This document shows positions 4,651 through 27,422 of a stretch of 28,495 bases of DNA, piece by piece. The notes under the pieces are model-generated. The model ran no database searches. It worked only from the letters and a program-made list of their open reading frames with translations, and was not told the DNA's origin. Origin of the DNA: a virus; IMG/VR virus record IMGVR_UViG_3300045999_013652, positions 1 to 28,495 of that record; one strand, given 5' to 3'. Position 1 is the stretch's first letter, and each line of letters begins with the position of its first letter. A program made the translations under genes and the position numbers.

Positions 4651-4932
4651 TTAAGCTATTTCCATAGTAACACTGAGACCGTTGGATTTCAATTTACTAT
4701 ACATTTTTTGTATAGTTTCATGGTCACCCCTTTTAACATCACACTTACCAGTGAAATGTACTATGTGAGCACATTGGGAAGCTTGTTCTGGTCCATGGTC
4801 GCAATATTTGATTAAACAGTTTATTACATGTTCAAAGGAATTATAATCATCATTGTGAAGGATTAGAATGTAGGGTTTACTCAAGACTTCTTCTACTTGA
4901 TAACTGGTTTGTTCTCTTGTAATTGTTGACAT
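4651..4932 (-). CDS. clpS: ClpS-type Clp protease adaptor
   Basis: A 93-aa protein covering the whole ClpS core. ClpS brings proteins with N-degron (bulky N-terminal) residues to the ClpA/ClpC unfoldase for degradation. The substrate pocket is intact: HNDDYNSFEHV matches the NDD-x(4)-E/D-x-V signature, and CAHIVHFTGKC carries the pocket His. At the gate position where E. coli ClpS has Met40 there is Phe, a feature I associate with Bacteroidota ClpS, as is the GKC-x-VK-x-G ending. The N-terminal extension is about 20 residues, so it could still reach a Clp ATPase. An AT-box sits 3 nt before the ATG. It probably came from a host. It could retune or compete with host N-degron degradation. Confidence 0.93.
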   Translation of the reverse strand: MSTITREQTSYQVEEVLSKPYILILHNDDYNSFEHVINCLIKYCDHGPEQASQCAHIVHFTGKCDVKRGDHETIQKMYSKLKSNGLSVTMEIA

Positions 4933-6004: not shown

Positions 6005-6535
6005 ATGAATCATATCAGAAAATTTAATTCCTTTCAGAAAGGAAAAAGAAGAGAAGAAATCATAAAGGAAGCTGTATTCCAAGTAAATGATATTTATAAA
6101 GTCAAAACTACTATTGATATTCCACAGTCTTTGATAAACGCTTATGTTAAGAAGGTAAAGGACAATACTGGAAAGAATTTAAGACAATTTTTTGGTGATA
6201 TGGACATTGCTGAAGAAATTGTAAAGTTTGTTGCGCAGAGTGGATTAGATTCTGATAAGCTTTCAGCAAATGCCCTAGTTGGTGGTGGTCAAGAACAATC
6301 ACAACCACAAGCCCAACCAGAGGCACAAACACAAGCTCAGCCTCAAGCTCAGCCAGAAGCACAACCACAGGTTCAACCAGAAGGACAATCTCAAGGGCAA
6401 GTACAGGTTCAGACTGAAACTGAAGGACAGACACAGCCACAAGCTCAACCACAGGATCAATCACAAGGAGAATTTGAAGAAGTTCAAGGTAGTGAAGAAG
6501 AAGAGGAAGAGGGTGAAGAAAAATTACCTGATTAA
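6005..6535 (+). CDS. Q/P-repeat, acidic-tailed phage protein with capsid-leader-like N-terminus
   Basis: A 176-aa protein of unknown family. Residues 1-95 form a globular helical domain. Residues 96-158 are low-complexity repeats of the type QPQAQPEAQ, and the end is a Glu run followed by KLPD. The N-terminus, MNHIRKFNSFQKGK, resembles those of several other proteins here and T4 capsid-targeting leaders (M-x-x-(I/L)-x-x-(F/Y)-x-x-F). An I-K-E/A sequence at residues 20-23 would suit a gp21-type protease. This suggests, but does not prove, a head or core protein. A terminator follows. The frames overlapping the repeats on the other strand are compositional shadows. Confidence 0.7.
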   Translation: MNHIRKFNSFQKGKRREEIIKEAVFQVNDIYKVKTTIDIPQSLINAYVKKVKDNTGKNLRQFFGDMDIAEEIVKFVAQSGLDSDKLSANALVGGGQEQSQPQAQPEAQTQAQPQAQPEAQPQVQPEGQSQGQVQVQTETEGQTQPQAQPQDQSQGEFEEVQGSEEEEEEGEEKLPD

Positions 6536-12006: not shown

Positions 12007-12012
12007 TCAATG

Positions 12013-12085
12013 TGGGCCTTCCTGGATTCGAACCAGACACCTTCGACTTATGAGGTCGCTGCTCTACCTAATGAGCTAAAAGCCC
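12013..12085 (-). tRNA. tRNA with CAU anticodon (Met, or Ile2 if lysidine-modified)
   Basis: A complete 73-nt cloverleaf. Acceptor GGGCTTT pairs with AAGGCCC, the D arm is GCTC/GAGC, the anticodon loop is CTCATAA (anticodon CAT), and the T arm holds GGTTCGAATCC. Discriminator base A; CCA is not encoded. The outermost anticodon-stem pair is a G-A mismatch. CAU can be elongator Met or, with lysidine at the wobble base, Ile for AUA. Sequence alone does not settle it. It lies convergent to the sigma gene and just beside the second tRNA. Confidence 0.93.
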
Positions 12086-12089
12086 GAAG

Positions 12090-12163
12090 TAGACAGGGCG
12101 GGACTTGAACCCACAACCTTGACCGTATAAGAGTCCTGCGCTCACCAATTGCGCCACCTGTCC
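12090..12163 (-). tRNA. tRNA-Ile (UAU anticodon)
   Basis: A complete 74-nt cloverleaf. Acceptor GGACAGG pairs with CCTGTCT (first pair G-U), the D arm is GCGC/GCGC, the anticodon loop is CTTATAC (anticodon TAT, reading AUA), and the T arm is GTGGG/CCCGC around TTCAAGT. Discriminator A; CCA is not encoded. The outermost anticodon-stem pair is again G-A. tRNA-Ile(UAU) is uncommon in bacteria, which usually read AUA with a lysidine-modified CAU tRNA. In this AT-rich phage AUA is frequent, so the tRNA would help late translation. Confidence 0.9.
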
Positions 12164-13849: not shown

Positions 13850-15583
13850 ATGGCATCATATAACCCACTTAACAACCAAGGTCAATCTCAGACAAATTTA
13901 AATTCAACAGTTGAGAATAAAGGTTTATTCAACAGACTTCTTAGAAATTTGTCAAACTTTGGCATGAGGTATGATGACATGATACTAAGAAACACTGTTG
14001 GTGTTGGTATAAATGAAGACCCATATTCTCAGAAAAATAATTCAATGTATGATTTTTTCAGTCAGAAAGCAGTTGCTTCTGTTCTGAATAAAAAGTCAAT
14101 TCCTTATCTTGACAGATCTTATGCTGATAAAAGAAGAATATTGAGGGAGTATTCTATAAAAGATGAAATAAGAGATTTTATTTCAGCTGTATCTGATGAG
14201 GGTATTATCTATGGTGTTGATAGAGACTTTTGTTCACCTGAACCTTTATCAAGTGATTTTTCTCAAGATGTAAGAGATAAATATCAAGAATATTTTGAAG
14301 TAATTTATAATAAGTTTGGGTTCAATGACAACATAACAGCATGGAATATGATGAGAGATTATCTAATTGATGGTTATGTAGCTATAGAAATAGTATGGGA
14401 TGATAAAAAGAAAAACATAATTTATTTCAACAGACTTAGACCAGAGACTTTGGTTCCTGCTTATGAGCCAGCTATAGGAAATCTCTGGATACAATTCCCA
14501 GAAGACCCTCAATTAAGAAGGATATTTTTAGATTCTCAAATTGTATTCATTTCATATTCAACTCAAAATGATTTTACTGAAACTTCATATGTTGAGGGGT
14601 TGATAAAACCATATAACCAATTGAAGATTTTGGAGCAAACAAAAATTATGTTCAATATCATAAATGCTACAATTTATCAGAAATTTACTATACCAATCAA
14701 AGGTTTGCCAAGACAACGTGCTGAGGAACAAATTGGTCAGTTGATAGCTGATTATTCTGAGGAGATTGAGTGGGATGATACTATGGGTACAGTTACAATC
14801 AATGGAAAAAAACATTTACCATATAACAAACAAGTTTGGTTTCCTGAGGGGGATGCTGGAACACCACAAATGGAACTTGTGAGTCCTGAGGGTCACAATT
14901 TGAATGAAGACATCTTATTAACTTGGTTTCATAATGCTTTGAAAAGAGCTTCAAAGATTCCATTCCAAAGATTTGATAAAGAAAGTGGTGGAGGTACCGT
15001 ATTTGATGATGCTGCCTCTATGACAAGAGATGAAGTTAAATTTAATAACTTCATCAATAGGTTGAGAGCTAATTATAAAGAGTTGATTGTAAAGCCTTTA
15101 AGACTGCAAATGTGTATGGAGTTTCCAGAACTTAAAGATGATGAAATATTTCTAAATCAAGTTGATATAATTTTTGTATCCAATCAATTATTTGAAGAAT
15201 GGAAAAGACTTGGTAACTTGGAAAAAAGGAGTGGTATATTAGGGACTTTACTTGGAATTCAAACGCCTGATGGTAAACCATATTTCCACATTGATTATCT
15301 TATGGATAAAGTGATGAAGCTCACGCAAGAAGAAAAAGAAGAGAACAAATCATATTGGATTAAATCCCAAGGTGGTGGTACTGCTCCTGAAGGTGAAATG
15401 GGTGGTGCTGGTGAGGCTGGTGGAGCAGCTGGTGGTGAAGTTGGTGAAATGGGTGGTGGTGAAGAAGCTGGTGGTGCACAAGCTACTCCTGAGGCTGGTG
15501 GAGCACAAGCTACTCCTGAGGCTGGTGGTGCACAAGCTGCTCCAGAGGGTGGGGGTGAAGAAGCTTCTGAATTTGAATTTTAA
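13850..15583 (+). CDS. 20: Portal protein (gp20-like)
   Basis: A 577-aa portal protein, forming the dodecameric head vertex through which DNA passes and to which terminase docks. T4 gp20 is 524 aa. The portal body spans residues 50-500: typical stretches include DEIRDFISAVSDEGIIYG, FNRLRPETLVPAYEP, IPIKGLPRQRAEEQI and DIIFVSNQLFEEWKR. The last 70 residues are a low-complexity Gly/Ala/Glu tail including three copies of a nine-residue GGAQATPEA-type unit. Such a flexible acidic tail is not part of T4 gp20. The stop interlocks with a convergent gene in TTAA. The next plus-strand gene is the protease-scaffold fusion, so the T4 order 20-21-22-23 is kept. Confidence 0.95.
   Translation: MASYNPLNNQGQSQTNLNSTVENKGLFNRLLRNLSNFGMRYDDMILRNTVGVGINEDPYSQKNNSMYDFFSQKAVASVLNKKSIPYLDRSYADKRRILREYSIKDEIRDFISAVSDEGIIYGVDRDFCSPEPLSSDFSQDVRDKYQEYFEVIYNKFGFNDNITAWNMMRDYLIDGYVAIEIVWDDKKKNIIYFNRLRPETLVPAYEPAIGNLWIQFPEDPQLRRIFLDSQIVFISYSTQNDFTETSYVEGLIKPYNQLKILEQTKIMFNIINATIYQKFTIPIKGLPRQRAEEQIGQLIADYSEEIEWDDTMGTVTINGKKHLPYNKQVWFPEGDAGTPQMELVSPEGHNLNEDILLTWFHNALKRASKIPFQRFDKESGGGTVFDDAASMTRDEVKFNNFINRLRANYKELIVKPLRLQMCMEFPELKDDEIFLNQVDIIFVSNQLFEEWKRLGNLEKRSGILGTLLGIQTPDGKPYFHIDYLMDKVMKLTQEEKEENKSYWIKSQGGGTAPEGEMGGAGEAGGAAGGEVGEMGGGEEAGGAQATPEAGGAQATPEAGGAQAAPEGGGEEASEFEF
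15467..15547 (+). repeat. Three 27-bp tandem repeats in the portal gene tail
   Basis: Three direct copies (15467, 15494, 15521) encode AGGAQATPE and close variants. The first two differ at one base. They probably vary by slippage. Confidence 0.9.
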
Positions 15584-16528: not shown

Positions 16529-18640
16529 ATGAAACCAATCCTAATTGTTGAAAACAATACAAATCCATTGAAGGAGAATGTTCAGGTTAGTGGTGGTAAA
16601 AAAGAATATGTTTTAGGTGGTATTTTCACAGAATTTGGTGTTAAAAACAGAAATGAGAGAATCTATACTGCTGATAAATTTATTCCATGTTTACAAGAAC
16701 TCAATGAAAGAATTAACACAATGGGTGTTGTTTATGGTGAATTTGACCATCCTGATGTGTTTGATACTTCTCTTTCGAGAGCATCACATATTATTAAGAG
16801 GGCAAATTTTATTAAAGAGTCCAATAGAGTAGAAGGAGAGATTAAACTTCTTAATACTTATTGGGGTAAAGAGGCTAAATCTCTTGTTGATGATAATTGT
16901 CCAGTTTTTGTATCTTCTAGAGCAGCTGGTGTTACTGAGTCTGATGGTACTGTGACTTTAAAAAAATTATTTACCTATGATATTGTTGCTGATCCTGGTT
17001 TTGCATCAGCAAGAATGAGTTCTATTAATGAATCATTAGGTTTTAAAAAAGAAACTAACTTTAGGATATATGAAATGTCCGATGAGTCAAAAATAAACGA
17101 TATATTCACTATGAACAAGAATGAATTCGTTACCAAGCAACAGTTGACTGACTATTCTAAATACTTGATCAATGAAATTTCTAGTACTAAGAAGCAAGTT
17201 CAAACTGCTGTCAAGAGTGGTAATATCAATCCAAAGAAATTAGAGCAACTTCTTGAGTATTATGAAGAGCTTAATAAGACAAATACACAAATGGTTAAGT
17301 ATCTTGACTATTTAGCAGAAAAAGTACAAGTTGTAGTAAATGAAAATAGTTCATTGAAATCAACAACTGAAAAACTTATTTCTCACAATGATTATTTAGC
17401 TGAAAATCTTGAAAAGGCAATAAATTATTCTGAGTATTTAGCTGAAAATCTTGATAAGAACATTTCCTACTCTGAGTATTTAGCAGAAAACTTAGATAAA
17501 AACATTGCTTATTCTGAGTATTTAGCTGAAAATCTTGATAAGAACATTTCTTACTCTGAGTATCTAGCAGAAAACTTAGATAAAAACATTGCATATTCTG
17601 AATATATTGCTGAGAACCTTGATAGAGGTATTTCTTATGCTGAATATTTAGCTGAAAACCTTGATAATTCAATTGCTTATTCTGAGTATTTAGCTGAGCA
17701 TGTTGAAGGTAACATTGCATATTCTGAATACATTGCAGAAAACTTGGATGATAATATTGCTTACTCTGAATATATTGCTGAGAATCTTGATAAGACAGTT
17801 TCTTATGCTGGAATGATTGCTGAGAAATTAAATTCAGGTGCAGTTAATGAATCTAAAAAATCTACAAAAGTAGTTCCAACTCTTGAGGAAATGGGTTTTG
17901 AAGAAAATCCAATGGAAGAAGAGGAGGAAATGATGGCTCATGAGGAAGGAGATATGATGGCCCATGAGGAAGAAGAAGAAAATCTTCCACATTTAAGTGC
18001 TTCTGAAGAAGAAGTAAAATCTCAGGCTTGGGCTGATGAAGAAGCGGATGAAGAGGAAACCTATTCTTGGGAAACTGCTGAAGAAGAAAGTTCTGAAGAG
18101 TCTGAAGAAAAATATGAAAAAAATTCTGATACAGAATTATCTAAACAAATTGATAAATTAATTCAAGAGGCTAAAAAACGTAAAGTTTCTGAAACATCTG
18201 AAATGCATTTCTTGAAATTCTTGAACAAACGTCAAGCTGATGATTTTTATAATCTAACACTTGAAGAACAAGAGCAAGTAAAACTTTATATAAATGAAAA
18301 AAGTTACTTCTCACAAGGTGAAGTTCTAAGACTTATCCAAGAAGCATTATCAACTAAAAATGAATCTCTAGAAGAGAGATTGATTAGATTGATGCCTGAA
18401 AACATTAAGCCAATCTGGTCCCAACTTAATGAATCTTCTAAGAAATCAATAATGTCACAAGCTAGACTTTATCCTGATTTAACAACAGAGTCTAATATTG
18501 AACATTTTTGGAATACTAGAAGTCTTAAGAAAAAAGAATCTGGTACTAAGAAACTAGTTTCAGTAGATCCTATCATTCAAGAAGATAGATTAGCTGAAAA
18601 TGAAGTTAAATCCATCTTAGAAAGATTCAAAAGCCTTTAA
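16529..18640 (+). CDS. 21: Prohead protease fused to repeat-bearing scaffold (gp21-gp22-like)
   Basis: A 703-aa protein. Residues 1-170 are a T4 gp21-type serine protease that matures the prohead: GEFDHPD (His74), FVSSRAAG (Ser129/130) and YDIVADPGF (Asp151/155) mark the catalytic sites. In T4, protease (212 aa) and scaffold gp22 (269 aa) are separate proteins; here the frame continues into a long helical, acidic part typical of a scaffold. Residues 286-439 are eleven 14-residue repeats of the form YSEYLAENLDKNIA. A Glu-rich segment follows (about 450-530), then a K/E-rich helical end. (L/I)-x-E sites, the known gp21 cut motif, occur in nearly every repeat and at SINE-S (165-169), just after the protease. 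Self-processing of a fused precursor is a reasonable inference. Confidence 0.88.
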   Translation: MKPILIVENNTNPLKENVQVSGGKKEYVLGGIFTEFGVKNRNERIYTADKFIPCLQELNERINTMGVVYGEFDHPDVFDTSLSRASHIIKRANFIKESNRVEGEIKLLNTYWGKEAKSLVDDNCPVFVSSRAAGVTESDGTVTLKKLFTYDIVADPGFASARMSSINESLGFKKETNFRIYEMSDESKINDIFTMNKNEFVTKQQLTDYSKYLINEISSTKKQVQTAVKSGNINPKKLEQLLEYYEELNKTNTQMVKYLDYLAEKVQVVVNENSSLKSTTEKLISHNDYLAENLEKAINYSEYLAENLDKNISYSEYLAENLDKNIAYSEYLAENLDKNISYSEYLAENLDKNIAYSEYIAENLDRGISYAEYLAENLDNSIAYSEYLAEHVEGNIAYSEYIAENLDDNIAYSEYIAENLDKTVSYAGMIAEKLNSGAVNESKKSTKVVPTLEEMGFEENPMEEEEEMMAHEEGDMMAHEEEEENLPHLSASEEEVKSQAWADEEADEEETYSWETAEEESSEESEEKYEKNSDTELSKQIDKLIQEAKKRKVSETSEMHFLKFLNKRQADDFYNLTLEEQEQVKLYINEKSYFSQGEVLRLIQEALSTKNESLEERLIRLMPENIKPIWSQLNESSKKSIMSQARLYPDLTTESNIEHFWNTRSLKKKESGTKKLVSVDPIIQEDRLAENEVKSILERFKSL
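17384..17845 (+). repeat. Eleven 42-bp coding repeats (14-aa scaffold units)
   Basis: Tandem 42-bp units encode 14-residue helix repeats. Units 2-5 are almost identical, alternating NIS and NIA endings in pairs, which suggests recent duplication of an 84-bp pair. Units 1 and 11 are degenerate. Frames read across these repeats on the other strand are artefacts. Confidence 0.95.
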
Positions 18641-18719: not shown

Positions 18720-20474
18720 ATGTCACACATTAGAATTGACAAACAGAAGGCTCTTAAAAAATGGTCTCCTGTTTTAGAAAACATGGGTGTTACAGGCGAA
18801 GATAGACTAGATTGGATGTCAGAATATGCTGAATTCCACTCTATCAATGAAAACGCTTATGTTAACGCTACTTTAGCTGGTATGGGTGCAGTTACATCAC
18901 CTCAGCCTTCAACTTTTGCTGGTTTCACTGATCCAGGTAAAATTGGACAAACCCTCGGTGGCCTTTCAACTGGTTCTGGAGATTTGGGTCAAAACCTTCT
19001 TCCAGTAGCTATGAAAATTGCTGCTCAGACTATTGGTCTTGATTTAGTTGCTGTAAAACCTTCACCAGGTCCAAAATTAGACCTTCTTTATATTGATTTC
19101 CAATATGATGATTTAGCTAACCCTGGCACTTTTGGTAGACCACAAATTTTCAAAGTTACTGCTGCTGGTTCTGGTCAACTTGACCAAGCTAAATTGAGCA
19201 TCAGAGCTTCATTGACTGCTAATGGTATCATTGAAACTTCAGATGGTCTCAAAGGTAAAAGACTTTGGTTAACAATCGCTACTGGTGCTGCTGGTACATA
19301 TAATCAGATTGCTGCAAGTGTGAACCTAACAAGTGAACCTTCAACACCATATGGTGGTGTTGCTGAATTTTTAGGATTCTCTCGTATTGATGGAGCTCCA
19401 ATTTTAAGAGCTTACAGACAAGCTAATTCTGAAAGAGTGAATTCTCCTTCATATGCTTATACTTTCGATCCAGCACAGAACACTTTCCACATTGCTACTC
19501 AGTCAATGGTTGATTATATAAAGTGTATTGGTACAGCTGCTGTTGCTCCTACTTCAATTGAACTCATCTCAGCTCTTGAAGACCATATTCCTGGATTCTC
19601 TACAAACTTCGCTGGCACAAGAACTAATGATGCTTCTGGTACTTATCCAATGGATAGGCTTACTGATGATAATAGTTATGCTGGTGTTATTGGGCCAAAA
19701 ATTTCTTCTAAATCAATCGCAGTTGGTACTATTGAAGTATCTTCAGCTCTTAGAAGAACTGAAATCGAAGACATCAAAGCTAACACTGGTATGGATATCG
19801 TTCAGAAGATGGAGTCAATCCTTGTAAATGAACTTTCTCAAACAATCTCTAAGCAAATTGTTTCTAAGATTTTTGAAATGGGTGATTTGAACAGACTATC
19901 TGCTCCACTACAATCTACAAAGACTGTATATGGAACTCCAGGTTTAACTGCGACAACTATCTTTGACCTTGACACTGATTATGCATCTGGAACATTAGGT
20001 GGTGAAACTACACATGCTGTACAAAGAAAACTCATCACTAAGATGGTACATGCTTCTAACTTCATCGCAACTGAAGGTCGTGTTGGACCTGCTCAATTTG
20101 CTGTGACTAATGGAGGTATTGCTGCAGCTCTTATGGACATTGCTGGTTACACAATTAACCCAACCAAGTCTAAAATCAATGGTTCTGGACAACTTTATCC
20201 AGTTGGTCAAATTGGTGATATCCAGATCTATGTAGATCCTTATATGAAGTATAATGATGACAGAATTGTCATTGGTAGAAAGAATAACCCAGATCAACCT
20301 GGTATTATTTTCGTACCTTACTTAATGGCTCAATCAATCAGCCTTATATCTGAAGCAACATTCGCTCCAAGATTGTTACTTAGATCAAGATATGCAGTTG
20401 CTGAAGTAGGTTGGTATCCACAGAAGCAATTCATGACATTATCAGTTATTGATTCTAATCAATACCTTAACTAA
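18720..20474 (+). CDS. 23: Major capsid protein (gp23-like)
   Basis: A 584-aa T4-type major capsid protein, the hexamer subunit of the head (T4 gp23 is 521 aa). The N-terminus is a helical prodomain that ends at a candidate protease site, HSINE-NAY (cut after Glu44); downstream come NATLAGMGAVTSPQPSTFAG, the SSALRRTEIEDIKANTGMDI arm region, and the closing LLRSRYAVAEVGWYP, which is typical of the family. Mature length would be about 540 aa. Codons here end in C more often than in neighbours, a usual sign of very high expression. The gene stands alone between an AT-box and a perfect terminator. The other frames inside it are shadows. Confidence 0.95.
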   Translation: MSHIRIDKQKALKKWSPVLENMGVTGEDRLDWMSEYAEFHSINENAYVNATLAGMGAVTSPQPSTFAGFTDPGKIGQTLGGLSTGSGDLGQNLLPVAMKIAAQTIGLDLVAVKPSPGPKLDLLYIDFQYDDLANPGTFGRPQIFKVTAAGSGQLDQAKLSIRASLTANGIIETSDGLKGKRLWLTIATGAAGTYNQIAASVNLTSEPSTPYGGVAEFLGFSRIDGAPILRAYRQANSERVNSPSYAYTFDPAQNTFHIATQSMVDYIKCIGTAAVAPTSIELISALEDHIPGFSTNFAGTRTNDASGTYPMDRLTDDNSYAGVIGPKISSKSIAVGTIEVSSALRRTEIEDIKANTGMDIVQKMESILVNELSQTISKQIVSKIFEMGDLNRLSAPLQSTKTVYGTPGLTATTIFDLDTDYASGTLGGETTHAVQRKLITKMVHASNFIATEGRVGPAQFAVTNGGIAAALMDIAGYTINPTKSKINGSGQLYPVGQIGDIQIYVDPYMKYNDDRIVIGRKNNPDQPGIIFVPYLMAQSISLISEATFAPRLLLRSRYAVAEVGWYPQKQFMTLSVIDSNQYLN

Positions 20475-24798: not shown

Positions 24799-25188
24799 AT
24801 GAGATATATTAAATATTTTTTTGAAGCTAAATCAGACAAACCAAAAGTTAAAAAACATGACATAGATGGGTTTGTTGTTCTACAAGGAAAAGATGCTTCT
24901 GCTAATGAATATTTAACCTTAGAAGTTGCAAATGAGGATGATATTTGGATGCATGCTAAGGGGGTGCCAGGCAGTCACATAATCATCAAGATAAAAGAAA
25001 AGATACCAACTGAAACAACTATTCAACGTGTTGCAGAGATTGCTGCTAAGAATAGTAAATCTACAGAAGATATGGTAAAGGTTGTTTATTGTAAGAAGAA
25101 ATTTGTTACAAAGGAACCTGGTATGAACACTGGTCAAGTAAAAGTTGATTATATCAATGCAAATGAAATAATTGTCCCTAAAAATTAA
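24799..25188 (+). CDS. Stand-alone NFACT-R domain protein (ribosome quality-control type)
   Basis: A 129-aa protein, almost all NFACT-R. This is the RNA/tRNA-binding domain of RqcH/Tae2/Rqc2, which act on stalled large ribosomal subunits and help add C-terminal tails. Signatures: DGFVVLQGKDASANEYL (the G-x-N-x-x-x-N-(D/E)-x-L start), DDIWMHAKGVPGSHIIIK (the diagnostic W-x-H-(x)n-G-S-H), IQRVAEIAAKNSKS, and a VVYCKKKFVTKEPGMNTGQV end. The NFACT-N and coiled-coil parts of RqcH are absent. The frame is open farther upstream, but only the ATG at 24799 follows the promoter box and starts near the domain. It begins MRYIKYFFEAKSDK, a possible capsid-leader-like segment. Its stop overlaps the AT-box of the peptidase gene. 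Confidence 0.85.
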   Translation: MRYIKYFFEAKSDKPKVKKHDIDGFVVLQGKDASANEYLTLEVANEDDIWMHAKGVPGSHIIIKIKEKIPTETTIQRVAEIAAKNSKSTEDMVKVVYCKKKFVTKEPGMNTGQVKVDYINANEIIVPKN

Positions 25189-27065: not shown

Positions 27066-27418
27066 GGGGGCGACTTGGAATAGATTCGCGATGTAAGTTT
27101 AGGGATGCAGGCATTGGGTGATATCGACCAATTAAATAAGGTATCAAAGCTGTAAATGGCAACACAAACGAAGTAGCTAGCAAAGAAGAATTAGTATTTG
27201 CCCTACGCAACAACCAACTCAAGGTAAACGAGGTAGCTTCTGTAGCTTAATAGTTTCCAACAGTAATGAGTCTGTAAAACTCACGATGTTATCTGTCAGT
27301 TAGAATCGTAAAATCAAATTGAATATTTTGTCAGTTTAAGAAAAAATTGACTAAGCTTGTGAAAGAGTTTTTAGGTTTAGTTGAGGAAGACGTGGGTTCG
27401 AATCCCTCCGCCTCCACA
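27066..27418 (+). ncRNA. ssrA: Transfer-messenger RNA (ssrA)
   Basis: A complete tmRNA of about 353 nt. The tRNA-like ends pair: GGGGGCG (27066-27072) with CGCCTCC (27409-27415), then discriminator A; CCA is not encoded (the next bases are CAA). The T arm, GTGGGTTCGAATCCCTC, has one internal U-U mismatch. The 5' half has the typical GACTTGGAATAGATTCGCGATG, and the 3' side CTAAGCTTGTGAAAGAGTTTTTAG is the conserved tmRNA core. An internal open frame encodes the tag. tmRNA frees stalled ribosomes and marks the protein for Clp/Lon-type degradation. Bounded by an AT-box and a perfect terminator. Boundaries are from pairing and could be off by a base or two at the 3' end. Confidence 0.95.
27158..27253 (+). 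other. tmRNA tag reading frame (long variant)
   Basis: Reading from GGC at 27158 gives 30 codons before the double stop TAA TAG. The peptide begins GNTNEVAS, passes through KEELVFALRNNQ and ends VNEVASVA. The resume codon is placed by similarity to Bacteroidota tmRNAs, whose tag begins GETN or GENN right after TAAAT. Usual bacterial tags are about 8-12 residues. The NEVAS block occurs twice (near the start and near the end), as if the frame grew by duplication. The end is VA, not the usual AA. Confidence 0.75.
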
Positions 27419-27422
27419 AAAG

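Follow-up and report, generated by a model that had tools for sequence, protein, structure and literature searches.

Does the rod of a phage head scaffold also mark the places at which it is to be taken apart? The question is raised by a 703-aa open reading frame (16529-18640, + strand) in a 28,495-nucleotide viral record, IMGVR_UViG_3300045999_013652, which was analysed over its whole length and is referred to here as the window. Directly upstream of the major capsid gene, this frame joins a predicted prohead protease to a run of 14-residue units, each of which contains a motif of the type recognized by the T4 gp21 protease. A preliminary description, made from the DNA letters, had proposed that the fused protease might cut after the glutamate of each unit and so break the scaffold into nearly identical 14-residue peptides. 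We asked how much of this proposal survives comparison with relatives and with known head-maturation systems.

A protease fused to a probable scaffold in a huge-phage fragment

The best matches of the window are LR756502, LR745206, LR756501 and LR756504, at 52-73% identity and from genomes of 634-735 kb. All genomes of at least 634 kb in the huge-phage paper are Mahaphage, and their predicted hosts are Bacteroidetes (PMC7162821). As judged from these best matches, the 28-kb record is a fragment of a Mahaphage-type huge phage. Elsewhere, it encodes a tmRNA (27066-27419; Rfam 74.6 bits, also called by ARAGORN) with a long predicted tag, GNTNEVASKEELVFALRNNQLKVNEVASVA, a ClpS adaptor homologue (4651-4932, − strand; Pfam E=4.9e-17) and a free-standing NFACT-R domain (24853-25188, + strand; E=4.8e-15), which makes three factors of ribosome rescue or degradation on a single 28-kb fragment. 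Genes for tRNA-Met(cat) and tRNA-Ile(tat) lie side by side at 12012-12163 (− strand), and an ORF at 6005-6535 contains a Gln/Ala-rich 12-nt repeat (6295-6388).

The 703-aa frame takes the position of T4 gene 21, between the genes for the portal protein (gp20 family; 13850-15583, + strand; PF07230 E=3.2e-56) and the major capsid protein (gp23 family; 18720-20474, + strand; PF07068 E=8e-28). The portal C-terminus carries short-period Gly/Ala-rich repeats of the type GGAQATPEA (15409-15565). In T4, genes 21 and 23 flank the scaffold gene, gene 22. No separate gene occupies the equivalent position in the window, where the protease gene is longer instead.

The first 168 residues (16529-17032, + strand) constitute a gp21-type serine protease domain. 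The protein matches the prohead protease profile phrog_207 (E=3.8e-30, aa 4-275), the same family that T4 gp21 matches, and gives a weak hit to Pfam Peptidase_S77 (PF03420; E=6.8e-4, below its cut-off). Foldseek searches with the predicted model returned three chains of 5jbl (T4 gp21) as the only matches at E<=0.001, with E about 1e-8 and probability 1.00. The predicted catalytic positions H74 (in GEFDHP, aligned to T4 GELNHP) and S129/S130 (in SSRAAG, matching T4 SSRGLG) are invariant in 52 sequences. These matches support the fusion of protease and scaffold that had been proposed from the letters.

Downstream of the protease domain, the protein consists of a helical lead-in (aa 203-273; 17135-17347, + strand), the array of units, an acidic linker (aa 442-535; 17852-18133, + strand; pLDDT 25-46) that is disordered and varies in length without keeping to multiples of 14, and a conserved helical C-terminal domain (aa 536-703; 18134-18637, + strand). 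Searches of this extension against scaffold families (phrog_237 and related) gave no match at E<=1, while T4 gp22, used as a control, matched phrog_237 at 1.6e-92; a T4-type scaffold family was likewise not matched by any other scanned ORF of the window. By location the extension corresponds to gp22, between the protease domain and the capsid gene, and in tblastn searches the match of a sister-clade protein spans the gp21-gp22 boundary of Aeromonas phage phiAS5. Taken together, our analysis indicates that the region is very probably a head scaffold rod.

In two Lak phages (L087 and L088) the protease comes with an acidic tail but without such repeats, which means that not all of Mahaphage share the array. 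Both keep [IV]NESLG at the end of the protease domain, and an acidic Asp/Ser-rich stretch replaces the rod; the Lak scaffold must therefore be organized differently.

An array that keeps its register

Repeat analysis resolved eleven contiguous 42-nt units at 17384-17845 (+ strand), in frame and with no frame break, which encode 14-residue units of consensus YSEYLAENLDKNIA; Tandem Repeats Finder picked up the array at periods 42, 84 and 126. L-A-E or I-A-E had been described at the same place in every unit, and indeed [LI]-A-E occupies unit positions 5-7 in 11/11, so that the codons of the glutamate at position 7 (E7) recur every 42 nt from 17402 (E292) to 17822 (E432). The array thereby holds 11 [LI]xE motifs in 154 residues, whereas shuffles of its own residues averaged 4.3 and never exceeded 10 (n=2000). 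The repeat begins further upstream: within the helical lead-in lies an in-phase unit, YLDYLAEKVQVVVN (17300-17341), which contains YLDYLAEK and is followed by one degenerate unit before the array.

At least 70 distinct relatives encode the array gene. In 68/68 relatives, the anchors that flank the array are separated by an exact multiple of 14 residues, from 11 to 15 steps, and one diverged relative (L090) shows a register shift of 7 (its units were re-phased by eye). The heptad register expected of a coiled coil therefore survives insertions and deletions. AlphaFold models aa 274-435 as a single helix of about 160 residues, with no break in a model of the repeats only, at modest confidence (pLDDT mostly 60-82, low pTM); 162 residues of helix would correspond to a rod of ~24 nm. 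Matches of the repeats to Pfam LTI65_PGEED and to a designed coiled coil (PDB 8qkd) were set aside as low-complexity helical similarity.

Of 118 pairs of relatives with C-terminal domain identity of 90% or more, 11 differ in unit number, mostly by one unit, in line with the earlier suggestion that this number may vary between strains. The companion suggestion, that units 2-5 were recently duplicated, fares differently. Their near-identity is real (98% of DNA positions between units 2 and 4, 95% between units 3 and 5), but recent duplication is not the best account of it. Among relatives that are not identical to the window, the two closest, L003 and L004, agree with it in unit number, although their matching units are 5-24% different from its own; moreover, the near-identical unit pairs vary by relative (3 vs 5 in L004 and L006). 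Because close relatives keep the unit number while other pairs are homogenized, we prefer homogenization over recent duplication, and the near-identity of units looks like the product of recurrent conversion and not of fresh gain.

Cutting, docking or coil packing

Across 764 units from about 70 relatives, Y4 is present in 100%, A6 in 99% and E7 in 99.7%. The codons of E7 vary synonymously (GAA 508, GAG 254), and this abundance of synonymous change implies that selection acts on the residue. The hydrophobic positions of the unit set a heptad register (a=2/9, d=5/12, e=6/13) in which E7 and residue 14 both fall at f, on the exposed outer face; residue 14 has the highest entropy of the unit (1.95 bits), whereas that of E7 is 0.03. 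E7 is the most conserved polar residue of the unit at each divergence level tested, and its motif is conserved beyond what coil packing needs. Coil packing does not call for invariance at an f position; recognition by a protease or by a binding partner does.

Enzymes of the gp21 family cut after L/I-x-E, with P2 free (PMC9026906, PMC9958956, PMC5694885), and the rule quoted for T4 gp21 in the preliminary description agrees with these reports (PMC9026906, PMC9958956). On the basis of conservation and T4 precedent, we predict four cut sites outside the array. The N-terminal autocleavage site, L-I-V-E8 then N (16541-16552, + strand), would be the counterpart of LIE-9 in T4 gp21 (PMC9026906); E8 is invariant in 52/52 sequences, and P3 is aliphatic in all. 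At the end of the protease domain, S-I-N-E168 then S (17021-17032, + strand) conforms to [IVL]NE then [SA] in 71/72, with N167 and E168 invariant in 52. Just past the rod, A-V-N-E441 then S (17840-17851, + strand) is located in a disordered stretch 6 residues beyond the predicted helix end, and conforms to [LIV][NFLT]E then [SNA] in 68/68 relatives (P1′ Ser 58, Asn 9, Ala 1). In the capsid protein, the putative propeptide site S-I-N-E44 then N (18840-18851, + strand) conforms to [ILMV]xE then N[AV] in 70/71 relatives, the lone exception being a truncated fragment. The array units resemble these conserved sites in having an aliphatic P3 (L/I/V 48/44/8) and Asn or Ser at P1′ (Asn 73%, His 22%, Ser 3%), while P1′ is N, S or H in only 18% of the LxE motifs found elsewhere in the window. 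However, conserved LxE motifs also occur within folded domains of the 703-aa protein (E57, E547 and E605), so the motif by itself does not imply cutting.

The best overall explanation, to which we assign a probability of about one half, is a scaffold rod fused to the protease that dismantles it, with many E7 positions cut. Each unit would contribute two heptads to a long coiled-coil-like helix, whose core residues L9 (a), L5 (d) and I13 (e) would build the rod, and whose outer face would present Y-[LIV]-A-E then N as a gp21-type site. Once the shell is complete, the protease would be activated by the predicted cuts after E8 and E168; it would then trim the capsid propeptide (E44), release the rod (E441) and cut many E7 positions, so that the rod could exit as 14-residue peptides or as peptides whose length is a multiple of 14. 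Judged as a separate step, cutting at several or more E7 sites is in our estimate evenly balanced, and at these even odds it ranks ahead of any single rival. The array gene is a concrete candidate that predicts exact peptide masses ([M+H]+): 1658.79 for NLDKNISYSEYLAE, 1642.80 for NLDKNIAYSEYLAE, 1601.73 for NLDNSIAYSEYLAE, 1594.74 for HVEGNIAYSEYIAE and 1629.73 for NLDDNIAYSEYIAE.

The main rival reserves cutting for the ends of the rod (E168 and E441) and regards the Y-[LIV]-A-E face as a repeated docking site, for instance for the N-terminal propeptide of the capsid protein or for neighbouring rods. We consider this possible, although less probable than cutting within the array. Y4 and A6 match E7 in invariance within the main clade, and the 735-kb clade (123 units) retains Y4 in 100% and A6 in 93% of units, next to E7 in 96% and a residue 14 with 2.70 bits of entropy; this conservation exceeds what gp21 needs and would suit a docking face equally well. 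E441, invariably conserved and in disorder right past the helix, would be an ideal release site. Cutting of the units, and complete digestion with it, is also disfavoured by their place in a predicted continuous helix, which the protease would first have to open; the best-conserved other sites are at the helix end or outside the helix. The sister clade (that of a 462-kb phage; about 35% identical) argues in the other direction. It relaxes Y4 as well as A6 (24%) and retains E7 in 68% of units and an aliphatic P3 in 93%, including every unit that has E7; these values are conservative, since the count takes in the out-of-phase units of L090. A clade that drops the alanine and mostly keeps the glutamate behind an aliphatic P3 fits the needs of a gp21 site, not those of coil packing, and agrees better with a P3-P1 rule than with docking through a three-residue face. 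Furthermore, internal cuts reduce T4 gp22, whose role is the most closely analogous, to small peptides (PMC9958956).

A plain long coiled coil, with LxE as a functionless by-product of a homogenized, Leu/Glu-rich heptad repeat, is a quite unlikely reading of the array. The continuous helix, the homogenized units and the change of array length by whole 14-residue units only are all expected of such a coil, and the 16 LxE motifs of T4 gp22, at a density similar to that of the array, do not exceed shuffling (5.9 per 100 residues beside a mean of 5.7 for shuffles at the composition of gp22 itself). Against a by-product stands the glutamate itself: exposed at f, it stays near invariant although its codons change synonymously, and no position of the unit varies more than the f position of the other heptad. 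A length gauge, in which the repeats measure out the scaffold core, unit number sets head size and cleavage is secondary, agrees with the variation by whole units among relatives but is highly improbable and was dropped, as unit number does not scale with genome size among the few complete genomes (about 11-12 units in the 634, 636 and 642 kb and 462-kb phages, about 13 in the 735-kb phage).

Within the favoured reading, in which the fused protease cuts many E7 positions, complete cutting at every unit is unlikely. About 8% of units have Val at P3, and in the sister clade a third of units are without Glu; a strict L/I-x-E enzyme would skip both kinds, and full reduction to 14-mers is the less likely for it. 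A natural repeat of this type could show how helix stability is balanced against protease access.

A fusion also poses a problem of stoichiometry, given that T4 assembles about 580 copies of gp22 with 55 of gp21 (PMC9958956). One lead is a possible internal promoter or translation element at 17057-17113 (+ strand), where codons 177-188 (AACTTTAGGATATATGAAATGTCC) show strong synonymous constraint upstream of an internal ATG (M195, 17111) that is present in 40/40 sequences. An internal promoter or start at this point might yield a protease-free scaffold and, if real, would solve the stoichiometry problem. Five sister-clade phages (L092, L097, L098, L101 and L104) carry the DNA GGATATATAGAA in a different frame, about as far upstream of a conserved ATG, and ATATATA-like stretches are also found ahead of the protease and capsid genes; the pattern is lost in several relatives (e.g., L022, L027 and L047). 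A candidate hairpin at 17064-17080 was rejected: pairing holds in 93% of cells, yet two-sided changes are absent and shuffles do equally well. The most complete version of the proposal, in which the structural repeat is itself the demolition signal and a regularly perforated rod is broken down by its fused protease into 14-mers that are nearly identical, perhaps alongside protease-free copies from the internal start so that rods outnumber proteases, strikes us as doubtful.

Comparison with known systems

In P2 gpO, lambda C/Nu3 and herpesvirus UL26/UL26.5, an N-terminal protease is carried on the scaffold and released by self-cleavage, and lambda and herpesviruses also make a nested scaffold-only product. 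These proteases belong to other families or have other specificities, and we know of no tandem array of cut motifs in their scaffolds. In the literature searched, we found nothing relevant on scaffolds built of repeats or on proteases fused to scaffolds in huge phages, no cleavage data for a close relative, and no scaffold rod whose outer face bears gp21-type motifs at strictly periodic intervals. Protease-scaffold fusion is known in kind, and the chopping of a scaffold by gp21 is known as such.

The proteases gp175 of phiKZ and gp245 of SPN3US are relatives of gp21 and share with the system predicted here Glu-specific head maturation, C-terminal autoprocessing and the presence of several cut sites in one propeptide; they differ in their S/A-X-E or A-X-E specificity (PMC9026906, PMC10052503).

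The nearest comparison is T4 itself, in which gp21 degrades gp22, gp67 and gp68 to small peptides that exit through the shell (PMC9026906, PMC9958956, PMC5694885). The likeness extends to the protease family and fold, the position between portal and capsid genes, the N-terminal LxE site and a scaffold with L/I-x-E motifs that include LAE and IAE: gp22 contains LIAE9 (then A), KLAE53, KIAE61, KIAE84 and WLAE100. The first reported gp22 cleavage was at a Glu-Ala bond (PMC9026906), and since LIAE9 is the only L/I-x-E of gp22 with Ala next, I-A-E is probably a real gp21 site. Motif density is already similar in gp22 (5.9 per 100 residues vs 7.1 in the array), so the novelty lies in regular spacing and not in density. 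The present extension has no detectable sequence match to gp22 families; and whereas T4 keeps protease and scaffold in separate genes, with irregularly spaced motifs in gp22, here the two are fused and a motif recurs in register every 14 residues. If the E7 sites are cut, this scaffold may carry its own demolition points.
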